From Natrarchaeobius halalkaliphilus (GTDB lineage Archaea > Halobacteriota > Halobacteria > Halobacteriales > Natrialbaceae): a stretch of 64,000 bases of DNA. Positions 2 to 39,216 of this stretch are shown piece by piece; the stretch's first letter is position 1; every line of letters begins with the position of its first letter. The stretch spans positions 124,001 to 188,000 of the forward strand of contig NZ_REFY01000004.1 in assembly GCF_003841485.1 (NCBI RefSeq), in the 5' to 3' direction. The notes beneath the pieces were generated by a model that made no database searches, had not been told where the DNA came from, and worked only from the letters and a program-made list of their open reading frames with translations. Position numbers and translations under genes: made by a program.

Positions 2-1318
2 GAGCGAGCGATCGGTCCGATCCAGGACGGACAGGTGGCGACGGCTCCGATGGAGATCGACGTGCCCCGCGATATCGAACCCGGCGAACACACCGTCACC
101 GTCAGGGTTCGATACGCCTACACGAACCGCGTCTCCGGCGGCGACGTCCAGCGACTGACCAAAAGCGAGCGCCACAGCGTCACCGTGGTCGTTCCCGACG
201 AACCGCGCTTCGAGATCGACGACGTCGAGACGGACGTCGAGCCGGGCGGCAGCGGCGAGGCGACGATCGGCGTTCGAAACGTCGGCACCGAGACGGCCAC
301 CGATCTCAGGACCGCGATCTCGGGCGGGACCGGCATCTCGGTCGACGGCAGTACCGCGGAAGCGCCGGCCGAAGAGCTGCTGGGCGAGCTCGATCCGGGT
401 CGTTCGACCGAGTTCACCGTCGACGTCGCGATCGAGGAGTCCGTCAGCGCGGGCGAAAAGCCGCTCCAGCTCGAGTTCACCTACCGGGACGAATCCGGAA
501 TCGAACGCCAGGGCGAGACCGAAACGGCGAGCCTCGTCCCCGCGTCGGAGCAGTCGTTCTCGATTTCGGACCTCGAGGACACCCTCTCGGTCGGCTACGA
601 CGGGGAGGTCACCGGCGAGCTCACGAACGACGGACCCCGGGCGGTCGACGACGCCGTCCTGATCGTCGAGCCGATGAGCGACTCGCTGTACGTCGAGGAC
701 ACCCGATACGCCGTTCCCGAACTCGAGGCGGGCGAGTCGACGACGTTCCGGTATCCGACGGACGTCAGCGGACAGGCCGATCCGGGGCCGCGACAGCTTC
801 GCTTTACCGTCGAGTACACGAGCGGGGATCGCTCGACGCTCACCGATGGACCGATCTCCGAACGCGTCGTCGTCGACGACGAACGGGACGAGTTCTCCCT
901 CGAGACCGTCTCGGCGACGGTCGGTCAGGGCGAGACGAGCGATCTGGTCCTCGAGGTCACGAACGAGCGCCCGGAGACGCTCTCGAGCGTCGACGCGCGG
1001 TTGTACACCGATAGCCCGCTGGATACGACCAACGACGAGGCGTTCGTCCCCGAACTCGAGCCGGGCGAATCGGCCGAGATCCGCTTCGACGTGAGCGCAG
1101 CCGGCGATGCGTCGGCCGAACTCCACCCGGTCGAACTCGACTTCCAGTACGATACCGAACGCGGCGACACGGTCGTCTCGGACACCTATCTGCACCCGGT
1201 CGAAGTCGAGGCGGTCGAAGACGACGGCGGAACCAGTCTGGGTTCGATCCTGGTTCGAGGGATGGCCGTCCTCACGGTTGCCGGACTCGGAATCGGCTTC
1301 TGGTGGCGACGGCGGTAA
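2..1318 (+). CDS. COG1361-type surface/S-layer-like protein (5' end missing)
   Basis: The reading frame is open at the left edge of the window, so the true start lies upstream. The visible part (about 438 residues) consists of repeated beta-sandwich units of roughly 120-150 residues, each with the pattern 'ELEPGESAEIRF' or 'LDPGRSTEFTV' typical of NEW3/CARDB-like domains in archaeal COG1361 proteins. The C terminus has one hydrophobic helix followed by basic residues (GFWWRRR), so the protein is anchored in the membrane with its bulk outside the cell. The next gene, an MMPL exporter, starts 9 bp after the stop, and this pairing suggests one operon and a partner role for the exporter. The actual substrate cannot be inferred. 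The family call rests on domain pattern and context. Confidence 0.75.
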   Translation, partial: ERAIGPIQDGQVATAPMEIDVPRDIEPGEHTVTVRVRYAYTNRVSGGDVQRLTKSERHSVTVVVPDEPRFEIDDVETDVEPGGSGEATIGVRNVGTETATDLRTAISGGTGISVDGSTAEAPAEELLGELDPGRSTEFTVDVAIEESVSAGEKPLQLEFTYRDESGIERQGETETASLVPASEQSFSISDLEDTLSVGYDGEVTGELTNDGPRAVDDAVLIVEPMSDSLYVEDTRYAVPELEAGESTTFRYPTDVSGQADPGPRQLRFTVEYTSGDRSTLTDGPISERVVVDDERDEFSLETVSATVGQGETSDLVLEVTNERPETLSSVDARLYTDSPLDTTNDEAFVPELEPGESAEIRFDVSAAGDASAELHPVELDFQYDTERGDTVVSDTYLHPVEVEAVEDDGGTSLGSILVRGMAVLTVAGLGIGFWWRRR

Positions 1319-1327
1319 TCGGGATCG

Positions 1328-4072
1328 ATGACCGACTTCGATCGTTCAGACGGCGGCGAGGACAGCGACCCGAGAGCCGACGGTTCCGACGCGAGCATCC
1401 GAGCCAACGGCGTCGCCACGGCGTCCGACGGGGACGGCGAGATATCCCCGGATGGAACGGACGCGGACTCGAGCCGATCGAACGACGGATCGTCGTCCGA
1501 CGGCCGGTCCCGGTTGCCCGGTCTCGCGAGCGTCGGTACTGCCGTCTTCGATCGGATTGGCTCCTCGAGCGAGCCCGACGACGGTGGTCGCAAACAGGAT
1601 CCGTTCACCCGGCGGGTTAATCCGCTCATTACGAATCGGCCCTGGACGGTCGTCGTCGTCTTCCTCCTCCTGACGGGCGTTTTCCTGGGTGGTGCCGTCC
1701 TCGGCGGCGGCGGACAGGAGGCCGGTGCCGATCAGTTCACGGAGGACACCGAGGCCCAGCAGGCGTTCGACGACATGCAGGAGAACTTCGGTGACGACGG
1801 CCGTGAGAGCGGCGGAACCACCGCTCAGCTGTTCGTCGAGGACGAGCGCAACGTCCTCTCGAAGCCGAACCTGTTGCGCATGCTCGAGTTTCAGGATCGG
1901 ATCGAAACGAGGGACGACCTGCGGGTGTCCTCCTCGACGAGTCCGGCCTCGCTGACCGCCCAGCAGCTCGATCCGACCGCGGAGACGGCAGAAGAACAGT
2001 ATCGCGTCGTCGACCGCGCCAGCCAACGGGAGATCGACGCCGCGATCGCGGAGGCCGACGACGCGGCGGGACTTCCCGTGAGCACGGATTTCACTCGAGA
2101 GTCGGCGTCGGCGACCGTCGCACAGATCGCGGTCACCTACGACACCGCGCCGCGGTCGGATACGAGTGACAACGCCCACCTCCAGTTCGAAACGCAGGAC
2201 CTGGCGAACGAGATCGACGGCTTCGACACCGACGAGAACGTGGTCATCTTCGGCGATGCGATCCTCGACGAGGAGATCCTGCAGCTGCTTGGCGACACCG
2301 CGATCGTCGTCTTTCCCGCGGCGCTCGTCCTGATCATGATTTTCCTGACGATCGCCTACCGGGATCCGATCGATCTCGGGCTCGGGCTCGCCGCGCTCGT
2401 GATGACGCTGATCTGGACGTTCGGATTCATGGGCTTCGTCGGTATCCCGTTCTCGGACTCGCTGCTTACGGTCTTTCCGCTGTTGCTCGCCGTCGGCATC
2501 GACTTCGGGATTCACATCATCAACCGGTATCGGGAAGAACGGGAAACGGGTGCGGCGATCGGGGACGCGATGGGGATCACGACGGGACAGCTGACGACGG
2601 CCCTGTTGATCGTCACCATCACGACCGTCTTCAGCTTCGCCGCGAACGTCGTCAGCGAGATGACCCGCGACTTCGGGATCGTGGCCGCGTTCGGCATCAT
2701 CTTTACCTTCCTCATATTCGGCGTCTTCTTACCCGCCGGAAAGGTCGGATTCGATCGCCTCCGCGAGGGGACTCGGTTCCCGAAGTTCGGATCCAGGCCG
2801 CTCGGAAACGAGGAATCGGTCCTCGGCCGCATCCTTCCAGTCGGCGTCGAAATCGCCCGCGTCGCCCCCGTGATCTTTCTCGTCGCGATACTCGTCGGCG
2901 GTGCCAGCGTCGCTGCCTACGGCACGGGTGTCGACACCGAATTCGACGAGGAAGCGTTCTTCCCGGACGAGGATCGCATCGAGCAGTACGAGTCGCTCCC
3001 CGGTCCGCTCGCACCGGGTGAGTACACGTTCATGCAGGTTCTCGACTACATGGAAGAGGACTTCGAACAGGGGATGGACGGGACGGTGACGGTGTATATC
3101 GACGACCGAAATCTCCGATCCGACGGTTCACTTCGGGAGATCGATCGATCGCTCCAGAACCCGTCGGACGCCTTCGAGGCGGACGGAAGGCAGGCGGACG
3201 CCGACTCCATCCTCGGCGTGATCGAGTCCCAGAAGGCGGCCGACCCGCAGTTCGCGGGAACCGTCGAGCGATACGACTCGAGCGGCGACGGGATTCCGGA
3301 TCGGAACGTCGACGTCGTCTATGACGAACTGTTCGATTCCGACGCGGGCGACGAGGCTGCGGATCGACTGACGACCGACAGGAGCGCGTCGAGAATCGAC
3401 GTTCGGGTCGACGTCGACGCCGAACAGGACGAAGCGGTTCACGCCGCCAGAGAGCTCGCGGCGGACATCCGCCTGGACGCGACGGCGACGGGCCAACTCG
3501 TCATCTTCGAATCCGTCGTCGAAGAGATCTCCGACTCGGCGCTCAGGAGCCTCTTCGCCGCCTTCGTGCTCACGGCGATGTTCCTCGTCCTCTCGTACTG
3601 GTGGCTCGAGGGACGGGCAATTTACGGCGTGCTCAACCTCGTTCCCGTCTTGCTCTCCGTCGCGTTGCTCGCCGGATCGATGCGCTACTTCGGCGTTCCG
3701 CTCAGCCCGATCAACGCGCCGATCCTCTCGGTGTCGATCGGACTCGGCGTCGACTACACGGTTCACTTCATGCACCGCTTCGTCGACGAGTACGAGAGCG
3801 GCAAGGAGGTCCACGACGCGTTGCTCGTCACCGTCCGGGGAACCGGCGGCGCACTCACCGGGAGTATGCTCACGACGGTCTGCGGTCTCGGCGTGTTGTA
3901 TCTCGCGTTGATCCCGCTGATCATGGAGTTTGGCCTCTTGCTCGCCCTCGGGGTCTTTTACGCCTGGCTCTCCTCGATCCTCGTCCTCCCCTCGACGATC
4001 GTGGTCTGGGATCGCCTCGAGAACGGATACGAGCTACGCGACCGACTGCCGTGGGACGCAGACCGGTCGTAG
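1328..4072 (+). CDS. MMPL/RND-family transporter
   Basis: A 914-residue inner-membrane protein of the RND/MMPL superfamily. The first 90 residues are acidic and probably disordered. TM1 (around residues 98-118) is followed by a large extracellular loop, a block of five helices (about 320-470), a second helix-loop unit starting near 510 (APVIFLVAILVGG) and a second block of five helices (about 720-890). The duplicated 'GIDFGIHIINRYREE' and 'GLGVDYTVHFMHRF' segments are the hallmark helix-4-type motifs with an acidic residue for proton relay. It lies directly behind the COG1361-type surface protein and is probably co-transcribed with it. The exported substrate (lipid, pigment or other hydrophobic compound) is unknown. 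Confidence 0.88.
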   Translation: MTDFDRSDGGEDSDPRADGSDASIRANGVATASDGDGEISPDGTDADSSRSNDGSSSDGRSRLPGLASVGTAVFDRIGSSSEPDDGGRKQDPFTRRVNPLITNRPWTVVVVFLLLTGVFLGGAVLGGGGQEAGADQFTEDTEAQQAFDDMQENFGDDGRESGGTTAQLFVEDERNVLSKPNLLRMLEFQDRIETRDDLRVSSSTSPASLTAQQLDPTAETAEEQYRVVDRASQREIDAAIAEADDAAGLPVSTDFTRESASATVAQIAVTYDTAPRSDTSDNAHLQFETQDLANEIDGFDTDENVVIFGDAILDEEILQLLGDTAIVVFPAALVLIMIFLTIAYRDPIDLGLGLAALVMTLIWTFGFMGFVGIPFSDSLLTVFPLLLAVGIDFGIHIINRYREERETGAAIGDAMGITTGQLTTALLIVTITTVFSFAANVVSEMTRDFGIVAAFGIIFTFLIFGVFLPAGKVGFDRLREGTRFPKFGSRPLGNEESVLGRILPVGVEIARVAPVIFLVAILVGGASVAAYGTGVDTEFDEEAFFPDEDRIEQYESLPGPLAPGEYTFMQVLDYMEEDFEQGMDGTVTVYIDDRNLRSDGSLREIDRSLQNPSDAFEADGRQADADSILGVIESQKAADPQFAGTVERYDSSGDGIPDRNVDVVYDELFDSDAGDEAADRLTTDRSASRIDVRVDVDAEQDEAVHAARELAADIRLDATATGQLVIFESVVEEISDSALRSLFAAFVLTAMFLVLSYWWLEGRAIYGVLNLVPVLLSVALLAGSMRYFGVPLSPINAPILSVSIGLGVDYTVHFMHRFVDEYESGKEVHDALLVTVRGTGGALTGSMLTTVCGLGVLYLALIPLIMEFGLLLALGVFYAWLSSILVLPSTIVVWDRLENGYELRDRLPWDADRS

Positions 4073-35151: not shown

Positions 35152-36135
35152 ATGAAGCGGTGGCTCCGCCAGCGCGTCGACGCGGCCTACGAGCGCCTGC
35201 TTTCGCGGGAGATCGCGGGAGCACCGACGCACGTCGCGGTGATTCAGGACGGCAACCGGCGGTACGCCCGCGGACGCGGCGGCGACGCACACGACGGCCA
35301 CCGAGCGGGTGCGGAGACGACCGAACGCGTTCTCGAGTGGTGTCAGGACGTCGGCGTCGAGGAACTGACGCTGTATACCTTCTCGACGGAGAACTTCGAT
35401 CGGCCGCCCGAGGAGAACGAACGGCTGTTCGACCTCCTGGTCGAGAAGCTTCGAGAGTTCGCGGACGCAGACCGCGTCCACGAAAACGGCGTCTGCATTC
35501 GCGCCATCGGGGAGACGGGACTGCTCCCCGAGCGCGTCCGGGAGGCGGTTGCCTACGCGGAAGAGCGGACCCGCGACTACGACCAGTTCGTCCTCAACAT
35601 CGCACTGGCCTACGGCGGTCGCTCCCGGCTGCTCGAGGCCGCCCGAGGCGTCGCGACCGAGGTCGACGGGGGCGCGATCGAGCCCGACCAGATCGACGTC
35701 GAAGCGATCGAGAACCGACTCTACGACCAGCCGGTCCGGGACGTCGACCTCATTATTCGAACCGGCGGCGACGAGCGCACCTCGAACTTCCTGCCGTGGC
35801 ACGCGAACGGAAACGAGGCGGCCGTCTTCTTCTGTACGCCCTACTGGCCCGAGTTCTCGAAGGCCGACTTCCTGCGGGGCATCCGAACCTACGAGCACCG
35901 AAAGGAGTCCTGGCGTCGAACCCGCGCCCGGCGGGCACTCGCGTTGCTCGCCGCGATGAGCGAACCCGACCTGCCGGAGGCCCGGTCCGTCGTCGATCGC
36001 TTTCGCGACTCGCTCCCGACCGCCGAGCGCTCGGATCTCGAGGAGATCGAAGGCAAAGAAAGCGCGGAGGAGACGGGCCAGCCCGGGGGACAGGGTGTCG
36101 AGAGTATCGACTCGAGCGGACGGGCGGCCGACTGA
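35152..36135 (+). CDS. uppS: Polyprenyl diphosphate synthase (cis-prenyltransferase, catalytic type)
   Basis: A 327-residue cis-prenyltransferase that extends a prenyl diphosphate with isopentenyl diphosphate to a long-chain dolichyl- or undecaprenyl-type carrier for glycan assembly. The catalytic Asp lies in HVAVIQDGNRRYARG (Asp33), followed by 'LYTFSTENFDRPPEE' and 'LIIRTGGDERTSNFLPW' in the second half. The last 70 residues are an acidic tail and lack the C-terminal RxG motif that many homodimeric enzymes carry. A second, shorter and degenerate paralog is at 37.1-37.7 kb. The start ATG at 35152 is supported by the family. Confidence 0.93.
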   Translation: MKRWLRQRVDAAYERLLSREIAGAPTHVAVIQDGNRRYARGRGGDAHDGHRAGAETTERVLEWCQDVGVEELTLYTFSTENFDRPPEENERLFDLLVEKLREFADADRVHENGVCIRAIGETGLLPERVREAVAYAEERTRDYDQFVLNIALAYGGRSRLLEAARGVATEVDGGAIEPDQIDVEAIENRLYDQPVRDVDLIIRTGGDERTSNFLPWHANGNEAAVFFCTPYWPEFSKADFLRGIRTYEHRKESWRRTRARRALALLAAMSEPDLPEARSVVDRFRDSLPTAERSDLEEIEGKESAEETGQPGGQGVESIDSSGRAAD

Positions 36136-36214
36136 GAACGGCCGGCGAAGTTAGAACGGCCGGCAGATTAGAACGGCCGGCCGACTGGAGTCGAGCGCCG
36201 ACTCCCATCTGCAA

Positions 36215-36976
36215 TCAGAGCAGAAGTAACACCACCGCGTAGGTCCCCGAACCCAGCGCGAATGGCCAGAACCGGCTCTCTCGCGTCCGGGGAAGTTCGT
36301 CCTTGATCGAGTTGAAGAGGATGCCGCCGGTCAGCAAGCCAAGCAGCGTCGTCACCGTCACGTCGTCGATCGTATAGCCCACGCCGACCGCGGCACCGAG
36401 GACGACCGCGCCCGCGAGGATCCACTTCCCGAACCGGCTATAGAGCTCGCGGTGGTGGTGTTGCATCGCCTCGTCGTTACCGAACAGGTGCAACGCCATC
36501 GCGACCCCGAACAGCGCGACGTTGTCCGTCCCCGTTTCACCCTGGACGAGCGCGTAGCCGATGAAGGCGTTGTAGACGGCGAAGCCCCCGACGTGGATCC
36601 AGAAGACTGGCTCCTCTCCGACCGACCCCAGTTCGCGCTCGACGCCGTAAGAGCGAGACATCCTCGCCAGTCGCTCGAGCCCGTAAAACAGCGCGAGTCC
36701 GACGAACGCGACGGCGTACACGTGGTGGGAAGCGAGCGACCAGACGAGGACGGGCACACCCTCGAGCGCCTCCTGGCGCTCGTCGAGTTCGGGGAGCAAA
36801 TGGAGGAACGCGTAGACGATCGAGACGCCGCCGGTCAGCGAAAGGAGGTCGTGACGCGACAGTCCGACGGACACCGAAAGCTCGTCCGGCAGCAGGTGGG
36901 CAACCGTGACCAGCGCGACGAGAACCGCCACGAGTACCGTCTCTCCGTCGATCGACGCCGCGAACGCGAGGGACAT
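36215..36976 (-). CDS. Polytopic membrane protein, ZIP-transporter-like
   Basis: A 253-residue integral membrane protein with about seven to eight helices and His-containing loops (AFLHLLPELDERQE, GNDEAMQHHHRELYSRFG). It loosely resembles ZIP-type proteins in the His-rich and proline-containing helices, but the classic ZIP motifs are not clear. The start MSLAFAASIDGETVLV is preferred; an in-frame upstream Met at 37045 adds a basic, non-hydrophobic leader. It lies between the two cis-prenyltransferase genes, on the minus strand like the second one. Whether it has a role in lipid carrier transport is not known. Confidence 0.65.
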   Translation of the reverse strand: MSLAFAASIDGETVLVAVLVALVTVAHLLPDELSVSVGLSRHDLLSLTGGVSIVYAFLHLLPELDERQEALEGVPVLVWSLASHHVYAVAFVGLALFYGLERLARMSRSYGVERELGSVGEEPVFWIHVGGFAVYNAFIGYALVQGETGTDNVALFGVAMALHLFGNDEAMQHHHRELYSRFGKWILAGAVVLGAAVGVGYTIDDVTVTTLLGLLTGGILFNSIKDELPRTRESRFWPFALGSGTYAVVLLLL

Positions 36977-37114
36977 CTCCGTTGGACGACACCGCGCAGA
37001 CGGCTGTCGCTTTCGGTGCAACTGCCGGGTCGACGTCGCGATCACGAACTCCCGGCTCGCTCGAGCGATCGGTTCGGACTCGAGACGGACGAACTCGCTG
37101 GCGACCGGAACCGC

Positions 37115-37720
37115 CTACCGTCCGAAGCGTCGGGACCGGTTGCAGTACTCCCTGACCGCCCGCAGGAAGTCCCGCTTGCGGAAATCGCGCCAGTTGACGT
37201 CGGTGAAGTACAGCTCCGAATAGACCGACTGCCAGATCATGAAATCGGAGAGTCGCTCCGCGCCGGTCTTGATGACGAGATCCGGCTCGGCGGGAAACAC
37301 CAGGTGATCCTCGACGTCCCCGTCGTCTATCTCGTCGGGCTCGATCTCGCCTGCGTCGACGCGTTCGGCAAGCGTCCGGACGGCACTCGTAAACTCGTGT
37401 TTGCCGCCGAGTCCGATCCCGATCTGGATCGGCGCATCGGCCCGCGTTCGGTCGTCCGGCCCGCGGACGGCCACCACCTCCGGCGCGTCGATTCCCTCGA
37501 GATCGCGACGAAGGGTCGGTACCGCCTCGGCGTCGAGGACGCTAACGTAGACGGTGACCCGGCCGGCGTACTCGAGCGCCCACGAGAAAAACGCGACGAG
37601 CGTCTCGTAGGCACCGTCCTCGAGGAGGTCCCGTTCGGTGATGATGAGCGCGACGTGGTTCGGGGGATCGGCCTCGTGATTGCGGATACGGCGGGCGAGA
37701 TAACGCTCGTACAGTCCCAC
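37115..37720 (-). CDS. Degenerate cis-prenyltransferase paralog (NgBR/Nus1-like)
   Basis: A 201-residue protein of the cis-prenyltransferase fold: it keeps 'PDLVIKTGAERLSDFMIWQSVYSELYFTDVNW' in the second half, but at the place of the catalytic DGN(R)R signature it reads HVALIITERDLLEDG, so the essential Asp is gone, and the first Arg of RTGGE is Lys. Its very C terminus is RRFGR, an RxG motif, which the catalytic paralog at 35.2 kb lacks. This is the division of labour seen in eukaryotic heteromeric enzymes (catalytic subunit plus NgBR/Nus1). GTG at 37720 is preferred as start (MGLYERYLARRIRNHEAD); an ATG at 37768 is possible. Confidence 0.82.
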   Translation of the reverse strand: MGLYERYLARRIRNHEADPPNHVALIITERDLLEDGAYETLVAFFSWALEYAGRVTVYVSVLDAEAVPTLRRDLEGIDAPEVVAVRGPDDRTRADAPIQIGIGLGGKHEFTSAVRTLAERVDAGEIEPDEIDDGDVEDHLVFPAEPDLVIKTGAERLSDFMIWQSVYSELYFTDVNWRDFRKRDFLRAVREYCNRSRRFGR

Positions 37721-37884: not shown

Positions 37885-39216
37885 GTGACCACCCCGATCC
37901 GGCGAGCCGCGGTCTTTGCGGCCATCTGTACGCTCTCGCTCGCCGTTCCGCTGTCCGGTCCGGGAACGGGTGCGGTCCTGGCGGCGGTCGTTTTGCTGGG
38001 CGCGTTCGTCGTGACCGAGGGCCCGCTGTTCGATCTACTCGCCTATCCCGGCGACTACGAGGATGGACGCCTCTACGGGCTCATCACGTTCGTGCTCGCC
38101 GTCGTTGCGCTCGGTCTCATCGCGGTCATGTCCTCGATGTCGATCGCGGTCTTCGTCGGAACCGCCTTCCTCATCGGATACGGCAATGTCGCAGAGCAGA
38201 TCGCACGCTCGAGAACCGACGACGAGGTCGTCGTCGCGACGGTCTTCGCACTGGTTGCGACGGTCGGAGCGGTCGTCGGCCAGGCGGCTACGCACGCGAT
38301 CGACGGCGTCCCGATCGAGCCGATGGTTCCGACGATCGTCTTTCTCGCCGCGACCGGCGCGCTCTTGGCAGCCCTGCTCCGGGACGTCCTGTTGCTCTAC
38401 GATGATCCGATCGTCATGGTTTCGGTCGGGCTCTTGCTCTGGCTGCTGGCCGAACTCGAGCCGGCGATCGGTCCGCTCGAGATCGTCGCGGCGCTGGTCG
38501 TCACCGTTGCGCTCGGCTACGTCTCGTACGTCCTCGATACGGCGTCGATCGCCGGCATGGTCACCGGAATTCTCCTCGGGCTGGTGACGATCGTTCTCGG
38601 GGGCTACGGCTGGTTCGCCGTCCTCATCGCCTTCTTCGCCATCGGCGGACTCTCGACGAAGTTCAGATACGACCGCAAGGAAGACCTCGGCGTCGCAGAG
38701 GACAACAACGGCGCACGCGGAACCGGGAACGTCCTCGGAAACGCCGCCGTCGCGCTCGTCGCAGTCCTCGGGTACGCCGCAAGCTCTGCGGGTCTCTTCC
38801 CCGGAAACCCCGATCCGATCCTGTTTCTCTTCGCGTTCACTGGCTCCGTCGCGACCGCCATGAGCGACACCCTCTCGAGCGAGATCGGGAGCGTCTTCGA
38901 GACCCCGCGACTCATTACCACCTTAGAGCGCGTCGAGCCCGGAACCGACGGCGGCGTCACCTGGCAGGGCGAACTCGCGGGACTCGTCGGGGCGGCGATC
39001 GTCGCCGGAATCTCGTACGCGCTGTTTCCCGAGGTCGACGCGACCGGAGCCGCGATCATCGTCGCCGCCGGCTTCGTCGGGATGACCGTCGACAGCCTGC
39101 TCGGAGCGACGCTCGAGGGGACCGTCCTCGGTAATCAGGGCGTCAACTTCCTCGCGACGCTGTCGGGCGCACTCGCGGGCGCGTTGCTCGTTCTCTCGTT
39201 CGCCGTCCTCGGCTGA
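37885..39216 (+). CDS. DUF92-family membrane protein (polyprenyl/phytyl-phosphate kinase-like)
   Basis: A 443-residue integral membrane protein with about 13 helices. Its C-terminal 220 residues carry the DUF92 signature: 'GYGWFAVLIAFFAIGGLSTKFRYDRKEDLGVAEDNNGARGTGNVLGNA', 'ATAMSDTLSSEIGSVFE' and 'AGFVGMTVDSLLGATLEGTVLGNQGVNFLAT'. Plant DUF92 protein VTE6 phosphorylates phytyl phosphate, so a kinase acting on isoprenoid phosphates is plausible here, especially next to two cis-prenyltransferase genes. The start is GTG at 37885; it is divergent from the short cis-prenyltransferase gene, 164 bp apart. The enzymatic role is inference. Confidence 0.8.
   Translation: MTTPIRRAAVFAAICTLSLAVPLSGPGTGAVLAAVVLLGAFVVTEGPLFDLLAYPGDYEDGRLYGLITFVLAVVALGLIAVMSSMSIAVFVGTAFLIGYGNVAEQIARSRTDDEVVVATVFALVATVGAVVGQAATHAIDGVPIEPMVPTIVFLAATGALLAALLRDVLLLYDDPIVMVSVGLLLWLLAELEPAIGPLEIVAALVVTVALGYVSYVLDTASIAGMVTGILLGLVTIVLGGYGWFAVLIAFFAIGGLSTKFRYDRKEDLGVAEDNNGARGTGNVLGNAAVALVAVLGYAASSAGLFPGNPDPILFLFAFTGSVATAMSDTLSSEIGSVFETPRLITTLERVEPGTDGGVTWQGELAGLVGAAIVAGISYALFPEVDATGAAIIVAAGFVGMTVDSLLGATLEGTVLGNQGVNFLATLSGALAGALLVLSFAVLG

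Follow-up and report, generated by a model that had tools for sequence, protein, structure and literature searches.

The window analyzed here, a 64,000-nucleotide stretch of DNA from Natrarchaeobius halalkaliphilus with a GC content of ~63%, encodes two paralogous proteins, termed subunits A and B (Table 1), that very probably form a heteromeric cis-prenyltransferase (cPT), supplying the polyprenyl diphosphate from which dolichyl phosphate, the glycosyl carrier of archaea, is made. The heteromeric reading, in which an inactive subunit gives an RxG motif to the active site of its partner, had been put forward in the initial annotation, and several observations support it: the motifs of the two proteins are complementary, the proteins co-occur 1:1 throughout the phylum, the genome has no other cPT, and the predicted fold of A resembles that of DHDDS. 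This split-active-site design is best known from human disease genes. With the design already known from a methanogen and from human, the haloarchaeal pair represents a well-supported further case, and the analysis indicates that a split active site is the standard cPT design of a whole archaeal phylum, beyond one methanogen or the eukaryotes.

Table 1. Coordinates of the cPT subunits and neighboring features (window positions)
Feature	Coordinates	Strand	Remarks
Subunit A, catalytic cPT, 327 aa	35152..36135	+	PF01255, full-length match, E=6.6e-67
Polytopic membrane protein gene between A and B	36215..37045	-	No Pfam or NCBIfam match; co-directional
Subunit B, catalytically degenerate cPT, 201 aa; no DGN loop, ends in RRFGR	37115..37720	-	PF01255
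RRFGR (RxG) motif of subunit B	37118..37132	-	Putative last element of the A active site
DUF92 (VTE6-like) integral membrane protein	37885..39216	+	PF01940, E=4.7e-60; divergent from B

The catalytic motifs DGNRR and RTGGDER are both present in subunit A, and Asp33 within the former is the aligned counterpart of Asp26 of E. coli UppS. Residues D26, G27, N28, R30, S71, N74, R77, R194, R200, and S202 of E. coli UppS had invariant counterparts in an alignment with 70 A proteins, in which the site of RRFG was occupied by ESWR or a similar sequence, never by a conserved RxG. In subunit A of the window, RxG is likewise absent from the homologous C-terminal site, where ESWR stands. DGNRR was found in every A protein of an enlarged, phylum-wide set (95/95). 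RxG tripeptides scattered in some A tails were rejected as a functional motif, since neither their position nor their residues are conserved. Methanosarcina-type A proteins end in tails that resemble each other (PIKRQGFS, PVKKQGIS, and PIKKQGLS at loci L118, L120, and L136). In a relative of Methanohalobium (G214:C103), the subunit A region is split by several stops, while the B gene and an MM_0014-like gene remain; the broken region may reflect either a pseudogene or faulty assembly.

Subunit B shows the reverse pattern. Its PF01255 match is confined to the C-terminal half (E=1.2e-25), HVALIITERDLL replaces HVAIIMDGN, KTGAE replaces RTGGE, and the C terminus is RRFGR. Across 69 B proteins aligned in the numbering of E. 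coli UppS, the equivalents of R241 and G244 were kept in all 69; the D26 position was T, S, or A, apart from three proteins in which an aligned D is not followed by GN; the equivalents of N28, R30, S71, N74, and R77 fell in gaps; and R194 was mostly Lys. A C-terminal R[RK]xG was present in 95/95 sampled B proteins and DGN in none of the 95. Most of the N-terminal half of B varies freely, while the RxG is invariant, as are P20, G106, E109, W163, Q164, E169, R195, R197, and G200 across the phylum. The alignments thus agree with the motif assignments of the initial annotation, which had described a 327-residue protein with DGNRR (Asp33) and RTGGDER but no C-terminal RxG, and a 201-residue protein that has lost DGN and the first Arg of RTGGE and ends in RRFGR. 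The 201-aa protein starts at a GTG at 37720, and the open reading frame listing also holds a longer, 217-aa frame from 37768; the shorter version is supported by the homologs, whose alignment begins at a conserved VGLYERYL. In one Methanosarcinaceae genome, the subunit B gene (G248:C1:2055467-2056006, minus strand) contains a single in-frame TAG, possibly read as pyrrolysine.

The whole genome contains exactly two PF01255 genes, A and B, and no further cPT. In the family sample, PF01255 was found in 101/101 genomes, with at least two matches in 100 of them; the remaining genome is 53% complete. At least two matches were likewise present throughout the class sample (69/69 genomes), and the A/B pair was present in 67 of the 70 genomes of the phylum sample, the three genomes with none belonging to one family. 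One A and one B were found in nearly all genomes of the Methanosarcinaceae sample, where the exceptions were mostly fragmented or incomplete assemblies. The two subunits were told apart by wide margins in the profile search, and in the tree they formed two separate clades (support of 97/93 and 96/100), with long branches among the B proteins. Both clades span the phylum, and the A/B split therefore predates it. In the sampled sequences, the motif complementarity of A and B is fixed across the phylum and is not due to chance. A scan of genome contigs with a methanogen B yielded two loci, in Methanohalobium and Methanosaeta; the search for relatives stayed within the phylum. Four genomes of family f16 (G159, G168, G177, and G266) gave no PF01255 match; three of them were searched for DUF92, and all three have it. 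In these organisms, the enzyme may be divergent or of another kind. One haloarchaeon has a third cPT-like protein, in which DGH replaces DGN (locus L122, G102:C1:478000-480900, ORF 911-2728, minus strand); its gene adjoins a PAP2-like phosphatase-type ORF.

Profiles and predicted structures of the pair were compared with bacterial and eukaryotic enzymes. A cPT fold was predicted for both subunits, more loosely for B, and the single-chain AlphaFold2 models were confident over most of their length (mean pLDDT of 86 for A and 87 for B). DHDDS chains from the human complex took the first seven places among the Foldseek matches of A; these alignments covered ~319 columns at a global rmsd of about 12 A, and E. 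coli UppS fitted the core at 2.0 A. The rmsd to DHDDS suggests that the cores are alike but that the extension is positioned differently. This C-terminal helical extension of A comprises about residues 255-308, and the C-terminal helices of the model lie at 237-268, 271-287, and 290-308, with confidence falling from ~79 to 49; many methanogen A proteins have a shorter extension than the haloarchaeal ones. Since the human heterotetramer is formed through the C-terminal extension (PMC7573591), an A2B2 assembly through the C-terminal helices of A is possible by analogy. Against PDB, the A profile scored best with human DHDDS (240 bits), a small difference from E. coli UppS (237 bits). For B, Foldseek returned cPT chains including NgBR with a loose fit (TM-score on query of 0.60-0.74, rmsd of 4-6 A), and its profile gave no special tie to NgBR/Nus1, with scores of ~120 bits for bacterial UppS against ~46 bits for NgBR.

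In bacterial homodimeric UppS (E. coli and B. subtilis), DGN and RxG lie on one polypeptide, whereas the haloarchaeal pair carries them on separate proteins; A shares the fold and catalytic residues of these enzymes, and B shares their C-terminal RRFG. Human DHDDS-NgBR and yeast Rer2-Nus1 divide the labor in the same way, with a catalytic subunit lacking RxG and a degenerate subunit carrying it. The comparison with these eukaryotic pairs, drawn in the initial annotation, stands for the division of motifs and, more tentatively, for A, whose profile and fold come nearest to DHDDS, its C-terminal extension included. It does not extend to B, which is much nearer ordinary bacterial UppS, differs from NgBR in having no membrane anchor, and shows no specific relation to NgBR, and a nearer precedent is archaeal. 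In the tree, which included one eukaryotic sequence, DHDDS branched as the sister of A, a weakly supported position (90/74). A thus looks DHDDS-like, and a common origin of the archaeal and eukaryotic heteromers is possible.

The closest precedent is a pair from Methanosarcina mazei, of the same phylum and nearer than the eukaryotic pairs. MM_0618/MM_1083 was reported as a heteromeric cPT giving C45-50 products for the glycosyl-carrier lipid (Emi et al. 2019, BBRC 520:291, as cited in PMC8131916). These are likewise two paralogs and, according to that citation, have been biochemically tested, whereas the haloarchaeal pair is known from sequence and predicted folds. A Methanosarcina-type genome (G218) contained three PF01255 genes, namely, one A, one B, and an ortholog of M. 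mazei MM_0014, which scored 441 bits against PDB 7caq. As only A and B occur there besides the MM_0014 ortholog, they are likely the counterparts of the reported pair, and A and B of the window are presumably orthologous to MM_0618 and MM_1083, by elimination in G218 rather than from M. mazei's own sequences. A heteromeric cPT has reportedly also been found in Archaeoglobus fulgidus; no such report was found in the literature searched. Nor was a description of a haloarchaeal heteromeric cPT found in that literature, a search with most subscription journals outside its scope, and such an enzyme may be known elsewhere.

In the proposed mechanism, the tunnel for the allylic substrate would lie in A, along with the catalytic Asp33 and the Arg and Ser residues that bind IPP. 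B would be noncatalytic, retaining the dimer-forming C-terminal half, and its C-terminal RRFG would reach into the active site of A to bind IPP-Mg, in the manner of NgBR with DHDDS. In homodimeric enzymes, the Arg of RxG contacts Mg via water and the Gly backbone contacts the acceptor phosphate (PMC8131916), and RxG is donated across the interface from NgBR to DHDDS (PMC7573591). Donation of RxG by B to A is the best-supported interpretation of the conservation pattern. Physical binding of A and B is inferred, as is the length of the product chain. The two genes are convergent and do not form an operon, and their layout therefore does not imply coexpression. Direct coupling analysis of 92 A-B pairs (effective number, about 45) placed the top-20 coupling above clade-shuffled nulls; however, control couplings of A and of B with DUF92 were as high as that of A with B (z of 5.3, 5.5, and 7.8). 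A-B covariation was consequently rejected as evidence of binding, as the controls indicate that it reflects only shared ancestry. Haloferax volcanii and other genetically tractable haloarchaea would be suited to simple in vivo work on A and B.

We also considered whether A alone might be a working homodimer, with B as a noncatalytic regulator or in some other role. All catalytic residues are indeed present in A, some cPTs lacking RxG are active, and two metagenome-assembled genomes (MAGs; G212 and G232) carry A and no B. Nevertheless, the homodimeric M. mazei MM_0014, which is active without RxG, uses a TLGG tail in its stead and yields short products (PMC8131916); no comparable tail is conserved in A. 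B is absent almost only from fragmented MAGs, and its invariant RxG next to a freely varying N-terminal half fits active-site donation better than general regulation. We therefore regard a self-sufficient A as unlikely. An even more improbable alternative is that B is a paralog in decay, or else a homodimeric enzyme in its own right with a different activity. Although its long branches and the loss of the DGN loop and several substrate residues would be in keeping with this, B is kept phylum-wide with invariant residues, and the Asp needed for cPT catalysis is absent from all 95 B proteins sampled. The heteromeric cPT, with A as the catalytic subunit and B as the donor of RxG, remains the preferred reading.

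A DUF92 isoprenoid-phosphate kinase-like gene had been noted in the same small region, and it was recovered here by its PF01940 match (Table 1). Its start is separated from that of B, on the opposite strand, by 164 bases. Counted from coordinates, DUF92 lies within 3 kb of B and divergent from it in 35/67 genomes over ten families, and A and B lie within 5 kb of each other in 26/67 genomes, tail to tail every time; the 3' ends of A and B overlap in some pairs. Close reading of individual loci showed the cassette A> <B DUF92> repeatedly, both in haloarchaea and in four other families. DUF92 is single-copy in 70/70 phylum genomes, and together with its frequent position divergent from B, this hints at a role in the same pathway. 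The gene shares PF01940 with plant VTE6, a phytyl-phosphate kinase. From the gene neighborhood and the activity of VTE6, DUF92 may act on the downstream polyprenyl phosphate, which we offer as a lead only. No study of archaeal DUF92 was found in the literature searched, and the recurrent neighbor provides a concrete lead on an archaeal family of unknown function. A broader scenario, in which the Halobacteriota and DHDDS heteromers would derive from one archaeal ancestor and DUF92 would serve the pathway as an enzyme dedicated to polyprenyl or dolichyl phosphate, appears doubtful when taken as a whole. The membrane protein gene between A and B was present at 2/20 family loci, that of the window and L080, and it is therefore probably incidental and outside the A/B system.
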